From the NCBI RefSeq assembly GCF_902168435.1, contig NZ_LR656166.1, forward strand, positions 248,001-312,000: DNA of 64,000 nucleotides, read 5' to 3'. Positions within the stretch are counted from its first letter, which is position 1. Each line of letters opens with the position of its first letter. Shown here piece after piece: positions 19,354-30,115 of this stretch. The position numbers were made by a program, and so were the translations under genes. The notes beneath the pieces were generated by a model. It was not told the DNA's origin, ran no database searches, and saw nothing but the letters and a program-made list of their open reading frames with translations. Source of the DNA: Bacillus marasmi (GTDB lineage Bacteria; Bacillota; Bacilli; Bacillales; Cytobacillaceae).

Positions 19354-21060
19354 ATGAGCTTTAAAATGTCACGTCAAGCATACGCTGAGATGTTCGGTCC
19401 AACGATTGGAGACCAAGTGAGACTTGGCGATACAGAGCTGTTTATTGAAATTGAAAAAGACTATACCACCTATGGAGATGAAGTGAAGTTTGGTGGAGGA
19501 AAAGTGATAAGAGACGGGATGGGACAACATCCTTTAGCAACTAGAAAAGATGCTGTCGATCTTGTCATCACTAATGCTTTGATTGTGGATTATACAGGAA
19601 TTGTAAAAGCCGATATCGGGATTAAGGATGGGATGATTGCAGGAATTGGGAAGGCGGGTAATCCGCTAATCATGGACCATGTTGACATTATCATCGGTGC
19701 TGCAACAGAAGTCGTCGCAGCTGAAGGGATGATAGTGACTGCTGGTGGAATCGATGCTCATATTCATTTTATCAGTCCGCAGCAGATTCAAACTGCGATT
19801 GAGTCTGGCATCACTACAATGATAGGCGGTGGTACAGGTCCTGCTACAGGTACGAATGCCACCACTTGCACGCCAGGAGCTTGGAATATTGCCCAAATGC
19901 TGAAAAGTGCAGAAGAATTTCCGATGAATCTTGGCTTTCTAGCTAAAGGTAATGCTTCAAGCGAGGCAGCTCTGATTGAGCAAATTGAAGCCGGGGCAAT
20001 CGGATTAAAGTTGCATGAAGATTGGGGAACGAATTCGTCCAATATTGATAAGGCGTTAAAGGTCGCAGATCAATATGATGTTCAAGTGGCGATACATACA
20101 GATACGCTGAATGAAGGTGGATTTGTAGAGGATACGCTTCGGGCCATTAACGGTCGAGTAATTCATACCTATCATACAGAAGGTGCGGGCGGTGGGCATG
20201 CACCTGATATCATCAAAGCGGCTTCCTACCCAAACATTCTACCTTCATCCACCAATCCAACTAGACCTTTTACCGTCAATACGATTGCAGAGCATTTAGA
20301 TATGCTGATGGTTTGCCACCATTTAGACCCTTCCGTACCTGAGGATTTAGCTTTTGCCGATTCAAGAATTCGGAAAGAAACGATTGCTGCTGAGGATATT
20401 CTTCATGATCTGGGTGTGTTCAGTATGATTAGCTCGGATTCTCAAGCGATGGGAAGAGTTGGTGAAGTGATTATCCGAACGTGGCAAACGGCCGATAAAA
20501 TGAAACGCCAACGAGGTGAAATGGTGAAAGGTGAGGAAAATGATAATGCGAGGGTGAAAAGATACATTGCTAAATATACGATAAACCCGGCAATTACGCA
20601 TGGAATTTCCGATTATGTCGGTTCAATAGAAATTGGAAAGTTTGCGGATCTAGTTCTGTGGAAGCCGGCCTTTTTTGGAGCAAAGCCTGAAATTGTTTTA
20701 AAAGGAGGGATGATTGCTTGGAGTGTAATGGGCGACCCTAATGCTTCAATCCCGACCCCAGAGCCTTGCATCTATCGTCCGATGTTTGCAAGCTTCGGAA
20801 AAGCAAGATACACCACTTCTATCACTTTCCTATCTAAAGCTGCGATGGAGAAGAAAGTCCATGAAAAGCTAGGATTGCAAAAGAATATTCGTCCGGTTGG
20901 GAATGTTCGAAGTCTTACTAAGAAGGATATGGTTTTAAACGGCGAGACTCCTAACATTGAGGTGGATCCCGAGACTTATGAGGTAAAAGTAAATGGTAAA
21001 TTGATTACCTGTGAACCAGATCAAAGAGTAGCTTTAGCACAACGATATTTCTTATTTTGA
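19354..21060 (+). CDS. ureC: Urease alpha subunit (catalytic)
   Basis: 568 residues, normal length. The nickel ligands are in place: HIH (GGIDAHIHF), the carbamylated lysine in [29 protein letters not shown], the flap [20 protein letters not shown] and the aspartate in [12 protein letters not shown]. It should be fully active once loaded with nickel by UreDEFG. No nickel transporter or ureI is encoded in the window, so nickel must enter by another route. Confidence 0.97.
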
Positions 21061-23710: not shown

Positions 23711-23763
23711 AAAAAGTACTCATCTCGAGACTTCTTCCTCGTCTACAAGATAGAGTACTTTTT
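23711..23763. terminator. Bidirectional terminator between ureD and the TusA-like gene
   Basis: An 11-bp stem AAAAAGTACTC (23711-23721) pairs with GAGTACTTTTT (23753-23763), with a smaller inner stem in the 31-nt loop. It can end both the urease operon and the leftward tusA-like transcript. Confidence 0.8.
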
Positions 23764-23768
23764 GAGTT

Positions 23769-24017
23769 TTACGATGGGACCACTTTTATATAAAAATAAA
23801 TATCCTGTCCGAGCTTTTTAGGCTCAGCTAAAAGCTGATAGCCATGTTTGACAGCTTCCTCTGGCACACTGCGAAAAGATTGCGGACAATCGGCGATGAC
23901 CTGAAGTACTTCCCCAATTTTCATCGTTTTTAGCGCATCCAGCGCATAAATGACTGGGTACGGTCAAGGCTCACCACGTATATCTAAAGTGTAGTTTACA
24001 TCAATTACTTGTGACAT
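23769..24017 (-). CDS. TusA/YeeD-like sulfur-carrier protein with in-frame UGA at the catalytic Cys (candidate selenoprotein)
   Basis: Reading from ATG 24017 gives 82 residues with one in-frame TGA (23964-23966) at codon 18. The flanks are DIRGEP-(TGA)-PYPVIYALDALK, so TGA falls exactly on the conserved CPxP cysteine of TusA/SirA-like proteins. The rest is intact to a TAA at 23769: IADCPQSFRSVPEEAVKHGY and KLGQDIYFYIKV, as in YeeD/YedF partners of YedE. AAGGAGG lies 10 bp before the ATG, inside the end of yedE, so the gene is translationally coupled. A GCGC-stem hairpin follows the TGA (see 23928-23950). I infer selenocysteine; a nonsense mutation of a Cys codon is the alternative. Confidence 0.7.
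23928..23950 (-). promoter_or_regulatory. Candidate bacterial SECIS hairpin
   Basis: In the minus-strand mRNA, GCGC-UGGAU-GCGC forms a 4-bp GC stem with a 5-nt loop. It is extended by three A-U pairs across a 2x2 internal loop. The first loop G lies 24 nt after the UGA. Bacterial SECIS elements are small hairpins about 16-37 nt after UGA with G near the start of the loop, so position and loop fit. The stem is short, and folding was done by eye. Confidence 0.5.
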
Positions 24018-24022
24018 GAGTT

Positions 24023-25252
24023 TTAAGCCTCCTTAGGAACATGTGAATTGCGTTTTCCTGATATATTTTTCATACCAGAACCATAACGGAATCTTTTTTC
24101 CCACCAATTTGATAGGAAGAACCAAGCAGCAAGCATTGCCATCGTTCCAAATAGTGCTCCCATTGGTCCCCATTCTTGAATTAAGTCAACTTTATTCCAA
24201 TTTTTCGCAAGTGCATTAAAAATACCGAGGTGATCCCAGCCGTAAGCAAGAACAGTAGCTCCAACAATATTCCCAGCGCCGACTACCCAGTATAATAATT
24301 GACCTTCCATTGCTCGATACATCATGCCAGTTTCACATCCCCCGGCAAGTACAATTCCAAAACCGAAGAGGACGCCACCAATGGCAGTACTTGGAGCAGC
24401 AACTTTAATCAGCGAAATTGCACCGCTTTGAATATAGAAAAAAGTTACCACAACGCTAATCATCATCCCAACAGCAATGGCCTTGGACATGACCGCTCGG
24501 CCGCTAATCCATAAATCGCGGAAGGCAGACGTGAAACAAATTTGTCCTCGTTCAATCAGAATCCCGAATAGTGCTCCGGCAATACAGGCAACCGCAAGCA
24601 TCGTTTTGCCAGTTACGAAAAAGTAGAGGATAAGTACGAGATACAAACTAGCAAAAATAAGTCCTAACAGCGGCTGAACGCTTCTCTTTGTGTCATTTTC
24701 GGAGACAACAGGATTCATCGAACCTTTCATCAAGGCTGGTTTTCCGCGCCACCACTTTGTGCTCACTAGTTTCACGCCAAAGTACGTTCCAATCGCTGTC
24801 GTTAGCATGAAAACCCAAGCATGGAATGAAAACTGTGGCACCCCAGTAAAAAAGGCAGCCAAGTTGCAGCCAAGTGCAAGTCGTGCGCCAAATCCGGCGA
24901 TAATTCCTCCGGCAAATCCCTGAACTAAACGACGCTTCTGTTTCGGTACGCGAATCTTAAAGCTGTTACTAAGCAGTATCGTAATCATTGCACCAACAAG
25001 CATCCCGATGACAATCCAACCGTCCGTACGGCTGATGGGAGTGCCTTCAAGGCCGACAAGTTGGAAATAGGCCCAATCTGATACATCCAATCCAAACCAT
25101 TTTAGGATGTGACCACCAAATCTAGTGAATTCCCCAGTCACTGCCCACACCGTTCCAGTAATCCCAAAATACAACGCACTGACAAGCCCAGCGATACCCA
25201 TTGCTACATAGGGATTCCAATACTCTTTGAAGATTTTTTGATAAAGCTGCAT
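24023..25252 (-). CDS. YeeE/YedE-family transporter (sulfur/selenium)
   Basis: 409 residues, about ten to twelve membrane segments. Two repeats carry the conserved cysteine motifs of the family: RLALGCNLAAFFTGVPQFS in the first half and ERGQICFTSAFRDLWISGR plus VLAGGCETGMMYRAMEG in the second. These long YedE proteins are linked to selenium metabolism by comparative genomics, whereas shorter ones (TsuA) import thiosulfate. GAAGGAG precedes the ATG. It lies directly upstream of the UGA-containing tusA-like gene, its usual partner type. Confidence 0.85.
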   Translation of the reverse strand: MQLYQKIFKEYWNPYVAMGIAGLVSALYFGITGTVWAVTGEFTRFGGHILKWFGLDVSDWAYFQLVGLEGTPISRTDGWIVIGMLVGAMITILLSNSFKIRVPKQKRRLVQGFAGGIIAGFGARLALGCNLAAFFTGVPQFSFHAWVFMLTTAIGTYFGVKLVSTKWWRGKPALMKGSMNPVVSENDTKRSVQPLLGLIFASLYLVLILYFFVTGKTMLAVACIAGALFGILIERGQICFTSAFRDLWISGRAVMSKAIAVGMMISVVVTFFYIQSGAISLIKVAAPSTAIGGVLFGFGIVLAGGCETGMMYRAMEGQLLYWVVGAGNIVGATVLAYGWDHLGIFNALAKNWNKVDLIQEWGPMGALFGTMAMLAAWFFLSNWWEKRFRYGSGMKNISGKRNSHVPKEA

Positions 25253-25546: not shown

Positions 25547-26656
25547 TCAAAGCACAACCCCATTAAAATTTTCCTTATATGATTTTTCGATAATAATTTG
25601 CTGCTCTTGAAGCAATTCTACTTTATCTCGGCGGAGAACCTCAAACTCACTTAATGTTTCTTTGTCAAATTGCCTGGTTTTAATAGCCCTTGAAAGAAGA
25701 GGGGCCAACACATATGCATCAATCATTCCGGTGTTAATTCCTATTGCGGCTGTTGGAGTCATCGTGTGAGCGGCATCGCCAATAATCATAAGTCCGTCCT
25801 TTACCCAGGTCGGACTTTTTGAACTAAATACATCTAAAGAAATGAGGTCATTCCAGGTATGAAGTTCGCGTTCGACTGTTTTTTTTAACTCAGGAACATT
25901 CTCAACAAGCGGCTGTATAAAGTCTCTAAAAGGGGCTTTTTTGAGTTCCGAAAATGAACCCTTTTCGATGTTCCAGCCGATTTGAACAAAGCCACCAGTT
26001 TGAGTGAAAAGAGCAAGCTGTGCATCGTTTACAAGTAGCATCCTAACAGTCGGTTTCCATTCAAATAGAGCTGTAATTTTTGCCCATAGGACATCATAGC
26101 CATGCTGAAAGAACTCAACCGGAATGTTAGCCAGCTTCCGTACTGTTGAAAAGCGACCATCAGCACCGGTCACAACCGAACAGTTTATCGTTACTTCAGT
26201 CTGATTGAGTGTGGCCTTTACACCACAGTAGCGTAGATGATCATCTTGTATTAAACCAGTGGCCTTGGCGTTAAACAAGATCTGAAAATGTTGTTTATAG
26301 TGCTTTGCCTCCTGGATGATTGTGCTCATTAAATGTGCTTGGGGCACATGAATTCCAACATGTTCTTCATCGCCTCGTGGAGCGATTTCTTTAATAACTC
26401 GATTTTGAACTATGTACTCAACCTTTTTCATTCGAAGTAAGCCTTTTTCTTCAATTTTATCGAACAACCCCAGTTCCGTTAAGATTCCTTCCGTTTCGGC
26501 ACTGATATGTTCACCCCTAAACTCGGGTGATTTTCCGGAGGTTCGTTCAAGGACTAAGGTAGACACACCGTTTTTCGCTAATAACAAACCTAACAAAGCT
26601 CCACTTGGTCCTGCGCCAACAATACAAACATCTACATTAAATGTGTTTTGACCCAT
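25547..26656 (-). CDS. FAD-dependent monooxygenase (PHBH/UbiH-like)
   Basis: 369 residues of the class A flavoprotein hydroxylase fold. VCIVGAGPSGALLGLLLA binds ADP, RGEHISAETEGIL contacts flavin, TGADGRFSTVRKLA is the DG motif and MIIGDAAHTMTPTAAIGIN the GD motif. AAAGGGAG precedes the ATG. It lies between a PhnCDE-like importer and yedE on the same strand, so it may oxidise an imported organoselenium or organosulfur compound. That role is inference; the fold also covers aromatic hydroxylases and geranylgeranyl reductases. Confidence 0.8.
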   Translation of the reverse strand: MGQNTFNVDVCIVGAGPSGALLGLLLAKNGVSTLVLERTSGKSPEFRGEHISAETEGILTELGLFDKIEEKGLLRMKKVEYIVQNRVIKEIAPRGDEEHVGIHVPQAHLMSTIIQEAKHYKQHFQILFNAKATGLIQDDHLRYCGVKATLNQTEVTINCSVVTGADGRFSTVRKLANIPVEFFQHGYDVLWAKITALFEWKPTVRMLLVNDAQLALFTQTGGFVQIGWNIEKGSFSELKKAPFRDFIQPLVENVPELKKTVERELHTWNDLISLDVFSSKSPTWVKDGLMIIGDAAHTMTPTAAIGINTGMIDAYVLAPLLSRAIKTRQFDKETLSEFEVLRRDKVELLQEQQIIIEKSYKENFNGVVL

Positions 26657-26790
26657 ATTCCACCGCTCCCTTTATCGTAGTTTGCCATTAATGGGAATGA
26701 ATATAATTGCAAAAGCGGAGGATGATTTTGGAAGAATGCATACACATAGGGGAAACCACAAGACCGAATAAAAGTGCCACAATGCGCGCT

Positions 26791-26837
26791 GTGAAACACA
26801 CATGTGAAACAAGAAAATTCGGGTGGTGACAGGCACC
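26791..26837 (+). repeat. Dispersed GTGAAACA/GGCACC repeat, copy 5
   Basis: GTGAAACACACAT, then GTGAAACAAGAAAATTCGGG, TGGTGACAGGCACC. It ends 4 bp before the complementary stop codon of the second permease gene (26842), and separates that gene from the monooxygenase. Confidence 0.85.
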
Positions 26838-26841
26838 CGAA

Positions 26842-27678
26842 TCATTTTACGAAGTATCTGGATTTTTCGGAGATGTAGTCGGCGATTGTGACCAGGATGA
26901 TGTAGCAAATAAGAATCAAGGTTATTTCGGTATAGTGGAAGAAGCTCATACTAAGCTTGAATTGCTGGCCTAATCCGCCGGCCCCAACAAATCCAACGAC
27001 TATGGTCGTTCTCATAATGACTTCCCATCGATAAAGAATATAAGTGAGAAATTGTGGCAGAACGGAAGGCAGCACGCCGTACAAAAGAATCTGTGCCCGC
27101 CCAGCTCCAGCTGAAGCAAGATTACGGATGGGACGTGAATCAGTATCCTCAATGACTTCCGCACAAAGCTTACCGAGAATTCCAAAATTGTGTAGGGCAA
27201 GAGCGATTGCACCCGGAAGAATACCTGGTTTAAAAATAAAAATGACAATCATTGCCCACACCAACTCAGGCACTGCCCTGCTGAAAATATAAAGCCCTCT
27301 AATTAGACCGAAAACAAACCAGCGATACCATTTACGGGATAATGTGAGCGTTCCATCTGCTACATTACGAGCAGCAGGAATAACCGTCAGAAACATCACA
27401 ATTGTTGAGAATCCAATTGCCATAATACTCATTTGCAGTGTTTCAACGGTAAGTGTAAAAGCATCAGACCAGCTATCCTGATTCAAAAAAGCTACTTCCT
27501 CTTCACCGAAACCGAGCATCCCTTTGAAAAACTTACTTGCATAGTGCATATTGTCCCGCGAAAAAACGTCCAGTAAACTTGCCTTTTCCACACCAATGAT
27601 AAAATACCAAGACGACGCAATTAAAAGAATGGTTAAGTAAAATGAAAGGGTAACAAAATTTAATTTTCTTTTCCTCAT
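26842..27678 (-). CDS. ABC transporter permease (PhnE-like), second
   Basis: 278 residues with about six membrane helices. The cytoplasmic EAA-type loop reads NLASAGAGRAQILLYGVLPSVLP. VGFVGAGGLGQQFKLSMSFF near the end is typical of PhnE. The start overlaps the previous gene's stop by 4 bp. It should pair with the other permease as a heterodimer in a PhnCDE-type importer; the context points to an oxyanion such as selenate or selenite. Confidence 0.87.
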   Translation of the reverse strand: MRKRKLNFVTLSFYLTILLIASSWYFIIGVEKASLLDVFSRDNMHYASKFFKGMLGFGEEEVAFLNQDSWSDAFTLTVETLQMSIMAIGFSTIVMFLTVIPAARNVADGTLTLSRKWYRWFVFGLIRGLYIFSRAVPELVWAMIVIFIFKPGILPGAIALALHNFGILGKLCAEVIEDTDSRPIRNLASAGAGRAQILLYGVLPSVLPQFLTYILYRWEVIMRTTIVVGFVGAGGLGQQFKLSMSFFHYTEITLILICYIILVTIADYISEKSRYFVK

Positions 27679-28463
27679 TGTGCCATCCTCTTTCTAAGCA
27701 TACTGCTCCAACCGTCAATAGCAACAACCATCAATATCAAAAAGAATACAAAGGTCCAAACCTCATTGTAATTCAAATCATTAAGCGATAGCTGAATTTG
27801 GTAACCAAGTCCGCCAAGCCCAACAAAACTCATAATCGCAGAGGACCGAACAGCACATTCAAAACGGTACATCGTATAACTGATAATGCTCATCTTTACG
27901 CTTGGAAAATAACCATAAAACAGGCATTCCCACCTTGAAGCACCGGTTGCGACCAAGGCTTGAATAGGCTCTTTTGGGACATCATTTAACATATCAGCAA
28001 AAATCCTCCCAAGAATTCCCCCATAAGGAATCGCAAGGGCAAACACAGCTGCATAAGGTGATAAACCAAACGAAGCTACAAAAAGCCATGCCCATACTAG
28101 TTCGTGGACAGCACGCATAAAACCAAGTAATCCTCGGAAAGTACTCATCATAAATGCCCTTGATCGACTCCCAGATGCTAAAACCCCGGAAGCAAAAATT
28201 CCGAAAATAAGTGCTATTATAATAGCTAGACTCATCCCAGCAGTCGCATAGGCAAGAGTAAGCCAGGCTGATTCCAGCGCTAAAACAAGAATATCTGAGG
28301 AAAGGTCAGGTTGAAGAATGGCTGCAAATATATCCGAGGCTGTACTAAGGCCTTTCGCATGCAACACATTAGGACCCCATTCCACTGCAAAAAGACTCCA
28401 GGTAAAAATCAAAAGCAAGAATATCGTTAAAATTTTTCTTTTATGCAAATCCACAAAGAGCAT
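27675..28463 (-). CDS. ABC transporter permease (PhnE-like), first
   Basis: 262 residues, about six membrane helices. The coupling loop ALVATGASRWECLFYGYFPS and the terminal SFVGLGGLGYQIQLSLNDLNY match PhnE. AAGGAGCT precedes the ATG, which lies 1 bp after the ATPase gene. It is 25% or so similar to its partner by eye, implying an old duplication. Confidence 0.87.
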   Translation of the reverse strand: MLFVDLHKRKILTIFLLLIFTWSLFAVEWGPNVLHAKGLSTASDIFAAILQPDLSSDILVLALESAWLTLAYATAGMSLAIIIALIFGIFASGVLASGSRSRAFMMSTFRGLLGFMRAVHELVWAWLFVASFGLSPYAAVFALAIPYGGILGRIFADMLNDVPKEPIQALVATGASRWECLFYGYFPSVKMSIISYTMYRFECAVRSSAIMSFVGLGGLGYQIQLSLNDLNYNEVWTFVFFLILMVVAIDGWSSMLRKRMAQ

Positions 28464-28464
28464 C

Positions 28465-29217
28465 TTAGTCCAGCTCCTTTAGCTGATAAAGCTCTTTGAG
28501 AAGCTTGTCTGTTACTTGGTCCGCCGGAAGGTCAAAGAGCAACTCACCATTTTTTAAGGCAATCAACCTTGTAAAATATTTTTTGGCGTACTCGACGGAA
28601 TGCAGGCTCGCTATGACAGTTTGATTTTCTTCCACAGCAAGTCTAGATAACATACCAAGAATATCCTCAGCCCGCGCCGGGTCAAGCGAAGCTACTGGTT
28701 CATCGGCGAGAACGATTTCTGGTTTTTGAATAAGGAGTCTAGCGAGTGCTACACGCTGTTGTTCTCCGCCAGATAAAGTCGAGGTGCGCTCATACAATTT
28801 TTCAGATAACCCAACTCGTTCCAACGCTTTTATGACTGATTGTTTTTCTTGAGGTACGAACAAAGACAATAAAGATTTAAAGAAACTCCAATGGGCAAGC
28901 CGCCCTGCAAGAACATTGTGGATCACAGCAAGCTGCCCGACAAGGTCAAACTGCTGACGAATCATTCCAATTTTTTTTGCTCTAATTTTTTGATTGGCAT
29001 AATGCTGGAGAGGCTTGCCATCGATTAATAATTCACCACTGTCAGGTTGGAGAGTTGCACCAAGGATATTGAGCAAAGTGGTTTTTCCAGCTCCACTAGG
29101 GCCAATTAAGGCAATTAATTCACCTTTTTCGACAGCAAAAGAAAGGGAAGATAAGGCTATCTTCCGGTCATATTGTTTCACTATTTGATTTAATACAATC
29201 ATTTTCTCTCTAGACAC
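28465..29217 (-). CDS. ABC transporter ATP-binding protein (PhnC-like)
   Basis: 250 residues. Walker A GPSGAGKTT, signature LSGGEQQRVALARLL, Walker B IVLADEPVASLD, then H-loop IASLHSVEYA. The spacing and the MIRQQFDLVGQLAVIHNVLAGRL segment are PhnC-type. The GTG at 29217 is used; an in-frame ATG at 29202 is a fair alternative because neither has a strong ribosome site. It energises the two permeases downstream. Confidence 0.9.
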   Translation of the reverse strand: MSREKMIVLNQIVKQYDRKIALSSLSFAVEKGELIALIGPSGAGKTTLLNILGATLQPDSGELLIDGKPLQHYANQKIRAKKIGMIRQQFDLVGQLAVIHNVLAGRLAHWSFFKSLLSLFVPQEKQSVIKALERVGLSEKLYERTSTLSGGEQQRVALARLLIQKPEIVLADEPVASLDPARAEDILGMLSRLAVEENQTVIASLHSVEYAKKYFTRLIALKNGELLFDLPADQVTDKLLKELYQLKELD

Positions 29218-29227
29218 AAGGTGTCAC

Positions 29228-30115
29228 CTACTTGATTATCTTAAGTTCTTTTGCAACTTCTTCAATTGCTTTGTAATTGTCATTATTTGTTTCAATGAAT
29301 TTATCAGTTTGAAGGAGGTTCATAACCTCATTGTCCCCAGCCTTCATAGAAAGAATCGCATCTTTAATTTTTGTTTTTGTCTCTTTATCCATTTTATTTA
29401 CAGTCCAGTTATAGTCATAATACTCTGGCGTCGTATAGAAGACCTTCACTTTAGTTGTATCAACTTTTCCTTCTTTGACAGCTGCTTCCCAAACAGAAAT
29501 GTTGAGAGCACCAGTTTGATAGGCTCCTGATTCCACTAATTTATAAGTTTTATCGTGGGATCCAGAATAATTAGGGGTACCATCAAGGTCTTTCTCTGGA
29601 TTAATTCCGGCTTCCATCACAAAATAGCGTGGCATTAAGTGTCCAGATGTTGAGCTTTCACTACCAAAGGTAAAAGTTTTACCCTTCAGTTCTTCCAACG
29701 AATTGATTTTTACCTCACTGTTTGCGATAAATACCGATTTAAATTGTTGATCTATTGGTCTTTGGGCGATTGCTTCAGATTCAGGTACAAGGTTTCTTGC
29801 TTGTACACCAGTAAGTCCACCAAACCAAGCGAGATGGATTTCACCGCGCTCAAAAGCAGTCACTAGTGCCGCGTAATCAACAGAAGGAACGAATTCAACC
29901 TCAAGCCCTGTTTTTTCGCCAAGGTCTTTCGCAAAATCATCCATACTACGATTTAAATCTGCAGTGTTTTGATCGGGAATCATTCCAATCTTAATCTTTG
30001 TTATTTCCGCTTCCTTTTCATTCGTGTTATCTTTAGCTTGTTCAGTTTGATCTGTGCAGGCCGTAATGAAAAAAATCATCATGATGCCTAACATAATTGG
30101 TAGTAGTTTTTTCAA
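29228..30115 (-). CDS. PhnD-like substrate-binding lipoprotein, putative selenium oxyanion binder
   Basis: 295 residues from TTG 30115 (AAGGGGCG upstream). A lipoprotein signal ends ...FFITACTDQ, placing the lipid on Cys20. The mature part is a type II periplasmic-binding fold of the PhnD family: GMIPDQN, VPSVDYAALVTAFERGEIHL, AWFGGLTGVQAR and FGSESSTSGHLMPRYF. The WFGGLTGVQAR form is the one I associate with PhnD-like proteins annotated as putative selenate binders rather than phosphonate binders. Gene order binding protein-ATPase-two permeases-oxidoreductase-YedE-TusA supports a selenium role. Confidence 0.8.
   Translation of the reverse strand: MKKLLPIMLGIMMIFFITACTDQTEQAKDNTNEKEAEITKIKIGMIPDQNTADLNRSMDDFAKDLGEKTGLEVEFVPSVDYAALVTAFERGEIHLAWFGGLTGVQARNLVPESEAIAQRPIDQQFKSVFIANSEVKINSLEELKGKTFTFGSESSTSGHLMPRYFVMEAGINPEKDLDGTPNYSGSHDKTYKLVESGAYQTGALNISVWEAAVKEGKVDTTKVKVFYTTPEYYDYNWTVNKMDKETKTKIKDAILSMKAGDNEVMNLLQTDKFIETNNDNYKAIEEVAKELKIIK

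Follow-up and report, generated by a model that had tools for sequence, protein, structure and literature searches.

The described system closest to the locus reported here is the YedE/YedF (FdhT/FdhU) pair, whose soluble member is represented by E. coli YedF (NF008242; PDB 1JE3). YedE and SirA-like genes have been tied to selenium traits by comparative genomics, as given in the available parts of PMC5322559 and PMC2432076, and Campylobacter FdhTU contribute to selenium acquisition or use for formate dehydrogenase, according to the accessible portion of a review (PMC6682613). In a second system, YeeD/TsuB acts with YeeE/TsuA in thiosulfate uptake (8J4C/8K1R). In the sections of PMC11073785 at hand, residue C17 of YeeD, in the CPxP motif, is described as the catalytic centre of thiosulfate decomposition, thiosulfate is thought to be relayed to C17 from the YeeE path, and YeeE-mediated uptake needs YeeD as an essential partner. 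Further relatives are the TusA sulfur carrier (3LVJ, 1DCJ), the two-domain SirA/DsrE form of YedF (TIGR03527), and a selenocysteine (Sec)-containing YeeE/YedE transporter with a GUxSG motif, tabulated in 2026 (PMC13188914). The in vivo form of selenium used by the selenophosphate synthetase SelD, and its donor system, are incompletely elucidated (PMC13188914, section 7).

Here, we describe a yedF-like gene of Bacillus marasmi with one in-frame UGA codon, which is very likely an intact selenoprotein gene. It belongs to the same equivalog as E. coli YedF and has the same YedE/FdhT neighbour, but differs in a predicted Sec (UGA) in place of the CPxP cysteine and in a SECIS-like hairpin within the coding sequence. 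With YeeD/TsuB it shares the fold, an adjoining gene for a membrane-channel partner and the CPxP nucleophile site, whereas its score lies far under the YeeD cut-off, its partner is YedE/FdhT rather than YeeE, and Sec would replace Cys. The TusA fold and CPxP site are also common to TusA itself, but our protein falls under the TusA equivalog cut-off, is linked to yedE and has the putative Sec. In the Sec-containing YeeE/YedE transporter, Sec occurs in the same transporter/partner system but in the membrane protein; here, the soluble partner would carry it and the membrane protein has three Cys. The two-domain YedF shares the N-terminal SirA/TusA-like domain and the selenium link, and differs in its DsrE domain, which our protein lacks.

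Genomes and Comparisons

The window, meaning the whole stretch of 64,000 nt that was analysed, spans positions 248,001–312,000 (forward strand) of contig NZ_LR656166.1 in the B. marasmi assembly GCF_902168435.1, which consists of 46 contigs (genome G000). Homologues were sought in 193 genomes of its own GTDB family, 397 of the order and 398 of the class, the last set including the own genome and G211. The total of 69 genomes with the UGA form is the sum of 47 (family), 6 (order) and 16 (class), with one genome per species; 79 genes from named contigs overlap these sets and were kept out of that total. In the family scan, stop-free matches with E values of 3e-8 to 8e-7 were classed as generic TusA relatives. 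Three class matches (G719, G793 and G809; E about 1e-13, longer frames) were left out of the close homologues and the selA counts. G749 was counted as Cys-like for its absence of a stop, the codons having been read in 24 of the 25 stop-free homologues. Codons and hairpins were compared in 92 distinct genes, 61 with TGA and 31 with TGC/TGT. The Sec machinery of relatives was scored by selA, and selB, selD and tRNA-Sec were scored in the own genome only; among 14 control genomes, the selA search gave a match only in E. coli. The tree was built from 84 protein rows chosen from the loci, with the frameshifted Cys gene of L189 omitted. Values of pN/pS were computed position by position without gaps, and a few sequences with a one-codon deletion inflate pN.

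The yedF-like Gene and Its Product

The gene and its immediate surroundings comprise the following features.

23769–24017, minus strand: yedF-like gene of 82 codons with one in-frame TGA, for a putative Sec-containing TusA/YedF-family protein; UGA form in 69 genomes including the own
23964–23966, minus strand: UGA codon 18, at the CPxP catalytic Cys position, predicted to be read as Sec
23933–23945, minus strand: SECIS-like hairpin GCGC-UGGAU-GCGC, with an 18-nt spacer after the UGA; in 61 of 61 UGA and 0 of 31 Cys genes
24028–24034, minus strand: Shine-Dalgarno sequence AAGGAGG, within the 3' end (last codons) of yedE
23711–23763, minus strand: terminator-like hairpin and T-run right after the stop codon (RNAfold, −23.8 kcal/mol for 75 nt)
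24023–25252, minus strand: yedE/fdhT, selenium-metabolism membrane protein (NF033796, 565 bits, cut-off 350)

A preliminary description of this DNA, made from the letters alone, had claimed an intact leftward frame broken by a single TGA at the position of the CPxP cysteine and preceded by AAGGAGG. All three claims were confirmed. The frame runs from the ATG at 24017 to the TAA stop at 23771–23769, the TGA at 23966–23964 is its sole interruption and lies exactly at the CPxP cysteine (codon 18) in the match to the TusA/YedF family, and AAGGAGG is found at 24034–24028. The readthrough protein, MSQVIDVNYTLDIRGEP-U-PYPVIYALDALKTMKIGEVLQV..., has 82 residues and matches Pfam TusA (E 9.1e-20). With C substituted for U, it scores 102.9 bits against a cut-off of 79 for the YedF equivalog NF008242 ('sulfurtransferase-like selenium metabolism protein'), a model matched by 33 of the 33 members of homologue set A1 at E 1e-5 or better. 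Other memberships were rejected. The scores were 35.2 bits for TusA (NF001423, cut-off 78), 30.6 bits for YeeD/TsuB (NF041048, cut-off 147.5; a YeeE/TsuA-type partner was likewise below the cut-offs), and 24.4 against 110 bits for the two-domain SirA + DsrE YedF (TIGR03527), the product being only 82 aa long and without a C-terminal DsrE-like domain.

The position of the Shine-Dalgarno sequence inside the end of yedE suggests translational coupling of yedF to yedE. Given this placement in the last codons of yedE and the terminator-like hairpin after the stop, the gene probably closes a transcription unit with yedE; the terminator-like hairpin at 23711–23763 is absent from the output of a consensus terminator scan. 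In an AlphaFold2 model (pLDDT 89), residue 18 lies immediately before helix 1, and it corresponds to the CPxP position held by C17 in YeeD. The best structural match in the PDB was the YeeE-YeeD complex 8J4C (TM 0.87). By sequence, the best match among solved structures was 1JE3 (E 9.6e-25), which, going by its description, is E. coli YedF.

Selenocysteine Machinery

The Sec reading put forward in the preliminary description depended on a decoding apparatus, and all four components looked for (selA, selB, selD and tRNA-Sec) are present in the own genome. The tRNA-Sec scores 62.2 bits, over the Rfam cut-off, and ARAGORN reports it as tRNA-SeC with anticodon tca (UCA). Scores above the cut-offs were likewise obtained for selA (562.3 bits), selB (361.5 bits) and selD (392.5 bits), the last with one in-frame TGA. 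Two formate dehydrogenase-type genes have one in-frame TGA each; one scores 802 bits, above the Fdh-alpha cut-off, and the other 215 bits, below it. Stems with a GGUCU loop are visible by eye after both of these UGAs, and in the second gene the stem differs from the predicted minimum-energy fold.

The Codon in Relatives

Alignment of relatives bore out the expectation that the codon would be TGA or a cysteine codon exactly at this place. Within the family, matches were found in 61 of the 193 genomes, and TGA stood at the codon in 48 matches from 47 genomes, own included. There was no further internal stop in the family UGA genes, the TAG listed for G113 being its normal end. The order added six UGA and four Cys genomes, and the class 16 UGA genomes and 13 with a close stop-free match, 12 of which were read, all as TGC or TGT. 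Altogether, a close stop-free homologue occurred in 25 genomes, and the 24 codons read were TGC or TGT. The 69 UGA genomes span 12 family codes (f1, f17, f20, f58, f60, f66, f68, f70, f74, f80, f81 and f83). Among the 79 genes from named contigs, 52 had TGA, 16 TGC and 11 TGT. The UGA form was seen in Neobacillus, Mesobacillus, Robertmurraya, Cytobacillus, Litchfieldia, Schinkia, Calidifontibacillus and Siminovitchia, among others, and also in Brevibacillus, Aneurinibacillus and Tumebacillus. One locus titled as an Actinomycetes MAG (L160) had TGC. Matches in 21 plasmid records (Escherichia, Salmonella, Ligilactobacillus, Klebsiella and Proteus) were all below 60% identity.

This distribution bears on the simplest alternative, namely a pseudogene or a sequencing or assembly error, the true gene having TGC/TGT or being dead. 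One base change from TGC or TGT suffices to give TGA, and Cys homologues do exist. Against this, the same TGA recurs in 69 genomes, each of a different species, with no other internal stop. Downstream of the UGA, median pS was 0.69 (near saturation) and median pN 0.098 (1830 pairs); with pN so far below pS, selection evidently continues past the codon. Together with a hairpin confined to the UGA forms (see below), these results rule out a pseudogene or an error, whose probability we consider negligible.

The selA gene was found in 45 of 47 UGA genomes of the family, 6 of 6 of the order and 16 of 16 of the class (67 of 69), and the two UGA genomes without a match, G179 and G183, are 81% and 80% complete. 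Among genomes with the close stop-free form, selA was present in all eight of the family, in none of the four of the order and in 3 of the 13 of the class. Because selA is common in the own family (172 of 193 genomes), its co-occurrence with UGA there says little, and the contrast comes from the order and class, in which selA accompanies 22 of 22 UGA but 3 of 17 Cys genomes (Fisher p 4.5e-8, with relatedness ignored). In named outgroup genomes, several of them shared with the class set, selA was present in 8 of 8 with UGA and 5 of 19 with Cys. Two incomplete genomes aside, the UGA form was thus seen in selA-bearing genomes alone, and the Cys form in both kinds. Since Cys forms also occur where selA is present, function does not depend on Sec.

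A tree of 84 proteins needed three Sec/Cys changes, although it has few columns and many unresolved forks. A recent switch separates Aneurinibacillus terranovensis (Sec) from Aneurinibacillus sp. Ricciae_BoGa-3 (Cys), with support of 98/93, and in the latter the hairpin is lost too, with 2 of 4 pairs left (L190, identical protein). The second conserved cysteine is kept in 59 of 61 distinct UGA genes.

Some loci were irregular. In L079 and L080 (G099 and G098), the second conserved cysteine is lost, IADCPQSF having become IAGPQSC or IVGANSC. L083 (G021) contains two near-identical UGA copies about 2.4 kb apart, both with UGA and hairpin; the second differs in its N-terminal extension and lacks an adjoining yedE. 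The Cys-form gene of Paenibacillus sp. D2_2 (L189) shifts frame in mid-gene in its assembly.

The Hairpin Downstream of UGA

In bacteria, a SECIS element is a hairpin just downstream of the UGA with a G in the first two bases of its loop. The GCGC-UGGAU-GCGC hairpin that had been proposed 18 nt after the UGA, with the first loop G at +24, was located at 23945–23933, that G being the 24th nucleotide after the UGA. With its 4-bp stem and UGGAU loop it fits the rule. Taken singly, such a hairpin carries little weight. Counting both strands and all frames, the window contains 2662 TGAs; the exact geometry is found at 11 of them, and 280 are followed by a 4-bp hairpin of some kind that begins 16–29 nt from the U and has G as its first or second loop base. 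The hairpin was consequently dropped as stand-alone evidence.

Comparison across genes was more informative. Codons +7 to +10 after the UGA read GCG CTG GAT GCG across the 61 distinct UGA genes, with Ala as GCG in 56 of 57, Leu as CTG in 61 of 61, Asp as GAT in 58 of 58 and Ala as GCG in 60 of 60 cases; in contrast, Ala at +24 is spelled by any of its four codons (22/19/10/9). For codons +7 to +10, normalised synonymous entropy was 0.016 in the UGA genes, the minimum among 45 four-codon windows (gene median 0.79); in the 31 Cys genes it was 0.80. The complete stem of four pairs forms in every one of the 61 UGA genes and in none of the 31 Cys genes; in the class set, it forms in all 16 additional UGA genes and in none of 12 with Cys. 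Pair 1 was G-C in 56 genes, A-U in four and G-U in one, pair 3 was G-C in 60 and A-U in one, and pairs 2 and 4 were invariant. Compensatory G-C to A-U changes, affecting both sides, therefore occur at two of the four pairs.

Folding gave a mixed result. A conserved SECIS-like hairpin is restricted to the UGA forms, in favour of the reading in the preliminary description. The 4-bp stem is a short one. The hairpin lies within the minimum-energy fold in 48 of 61 UGA sequences and not in the other 13, the window included; in the window's own 48 nt, it is not the minimum-energy fold and its pair probability is 0.57. The case for a predicted SECIS function is one of comparison, that is, of conservation beyond chance, and not of energy. 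The UGGAU loop is unlike the GGUCU loop of the formate dehydrogenase-type genes, and its recognition by SelB is assumed.

These patterns also weigh on a second alternative, in which the UGA truly terminates translation, leaving a 17-residue leader peptide, and any downstream frame is made from an internal start, with a regulatory role. A Sec UGA does terminate when selenium or SelB is missing, and bacterial Sec insertion is inefficient, both in favour of this alternative. However, the residues from PYP onwards are conserved, the Cys homologues form an uninterrupted protein, the hairpin occurs in UGA forms only, and UGA forms accompany selA. Beyond the UGA, ATG first occurs at codon 32, and neither GTG nor TTG comes earlier, so that a protein restarted there would be without strand 1, helix 1 and the active site. 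On the grounds of conservation, of pN/pS and of a hairpin limited to UGA forms, we reject true termination and regard it as very improbable. The identification of the residue as Sec, first made in the preliminary description, is strongly supported by the Sec machinery, the exchange of Cys and Sec among relatives and the hairpin conserved in UGA forms only. As judged from these comparisons, Sec is almost certainly inserted at codon 18.

The YedE Partner and Its Neighbourhood

A yedE gene stands upstream on the same strand at 117 of the 117 loci compared (L071–L108, L111–L189), whether the codon is UGA or Cys. Two of these loci, L150 and L180, are truncated by a contig end; the additional gene copy of L083 is separated from yedE. 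In L108 (G014) and L170, the tblastn match to yedE is split or shortened, from a frameshift or a poorly alignable stretch. The YedE cysteines C129, C239 and C306 are invariant in 77 aligned homologues. The B. marasmi neighbour scored 78.4 bits with the TsuA/YeeE model (cut-off 645) and 123.3 bits with the Spirochaeta TsuA model (cut-off 400). YedE positions 267, 271 and 377 differ between Sec- and Cys-partnered proteins; this difference is confounded by phylogeny and was not used as evidence of co-evolution.

Upstream of yedE, at 25547–30115 on the minus strand, the window holds an FAD-dependent oxidoreductase and a putative selenate ABC transporter, the latter with these parts.

29228–30115, minus strand: putative selenate ABC transporter substrate-binding protein (TIGR04553, 316.6 bits, cut-off 250)
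28465–29217, minus strand: ATPase of the ABC cluster, below the cut-off of its best model
27675–28463 and 26842–27678, minus strand: two PhnE-like permeases, below the cut-offs of their best models

Neither the cluster nor the oxidoreductase found support as a conserved part of the system. The substrate-binding protein, permeases and oxidoreductase were unmatched in the relatives' flanks (3–4 kb, some shorter), in which only distant ATPase matches of 25–32% identity were found. Elsewhere in the window, Rfam 5_ureB_sRNA (RF02514) matched at 19508–19795 (minus strand; 105.9 bits), antisense within the urease alpha-subunit gene; the match possibly reflects merely conserved coding sequence.

Selenium or Sulfur

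The earlier proposal of a sulfur or selenium carrier for YedE agrees with the neighbouring yedE gene and with the YeeE-YeeD structure, and we infer that the product, Sec-YedF, is probably a chalcogen carrier working with YedE. In the proposed mechanism, the host SelB and tRNA-Sec would decode UGA codon 18 as Sec, helped by the SECIS hairpin 18 nt downstream, to give an 82-residue TusA-fold protein with Sec in place of the CPxP cysteine. By analogy with YeeE-YeeD, Sec-YedF would most likely dock where the YedE channel opens into the cytoplasm, and its selenol could attack a selenium-containing (or Se/S) substrate emerging from YedE. Selenium would be retained as a Sec-bound perselenide or selenosulfide and then passed on, probably towards SelD, whose gene here has its own in-frame TGA, for selenophosphate synthesis. 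Selenium rather than sulfur as the cargo, with SelD as its recipient, is quite possible, if short of probable; the link to selenium comes from the two best-scoring models (YedF NF008242 and YedE NF033796), both of which are selenium-linked, and from the selenium associations of YedE, SirA-like genes and Campylobacter FdhTU cited above.

Should the protein be a selenoprotein, it may nevertheless work on sulfur, as a thiosulfate or persulfide carrier or a YeeD/TusA-like redox protein in which Sec merely gives faster or oxidation-reversible chemistry. The thiosulfate-decomposing C17 of YeeD (as described in the available text of PMC11073785), the closeness of the predicted fold to the YeeE-YeeD complex, and the Cys forms that adjoin yedE even in genomes without selA all favour this reading, and in those genomes a sulfur role, or a Sec-free selenium role, is possible. 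The profile scores point the other way, with YedF well above TusA and YeeD for the protein itself and YedE/FdhT well above both TsuA models for its neighbour. We treat a sulfur function as a considerable but doubtful possibility.

On the same premise, Sec-YedF could be mainly a sensor or regulator of selenium status, made only when selenium suffices and gating import or export by YedE. Its translation would depend on the pathway's own product, YeeD is an essential partner in YeeE-mediated uptake (PMC11073785, in the part available), and YedE has also been proposed as a selenium exporter in the accessible part of PMC5322559. The conserved nucleophile position argues instead for chemistry, and we consider a sensor improbable.

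Extending the carrier mechanism, the selenium supply of these Bacilli could itself be selenium-dependent, through a relay from YedE to Sec-YedF (as perselenide or selenosulfide) and on to a Sec-containing SelD. We advance this full relay as a speculative and rather unlikely extension.

A Candidate Selenoprotein Family

Sec-containing YedF is missing from the published selenoprotein lists examined, and dozens of related bacteria share the arrangement. The 119 prokaryotic selenoprotein families and subfamilies inventoried in 2026 (PMC13188914) include YeeE/YedE, DsrE-like and rhodanese selenoproteins, with no TusA/SirA/YedF family in the table or text. The names TusA, SirA and YedF are absent from the deep-Sep paper (PMC12013277), from PMC5029168 and from the GOS study (PMC2398784). 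In the portions available, a 2022 review (PMC9312934) mentions YedF just as a selenium-related redox protein, and PMC4607533 and PMC4210487 mention YedF or SirA without Sec. No report of a Sec-containing YedF was found in the accessible part of the full-text literature on selenoproteins with TusA, SirA, YedF or Bacillaceae. Ordinary gene calling can miss the Sec-YedF family; the finding would add a selenoprotein family and a codon-level SECIS signature by which its members can be found and annotated.

The finding addresses the question of how selenium is told from sulfur and delivered to selenophosphate synthetase, and Sec-YedF, beside YedE in many named Bacilli strains, offers a small soluble protein for a direct test. 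If the relay is true, Sec would be required at successive steps of the very machinery that supplies its synthesis, which would form a positive-feedback, selenium-selective relay able to discriminate selenium from sulfur.
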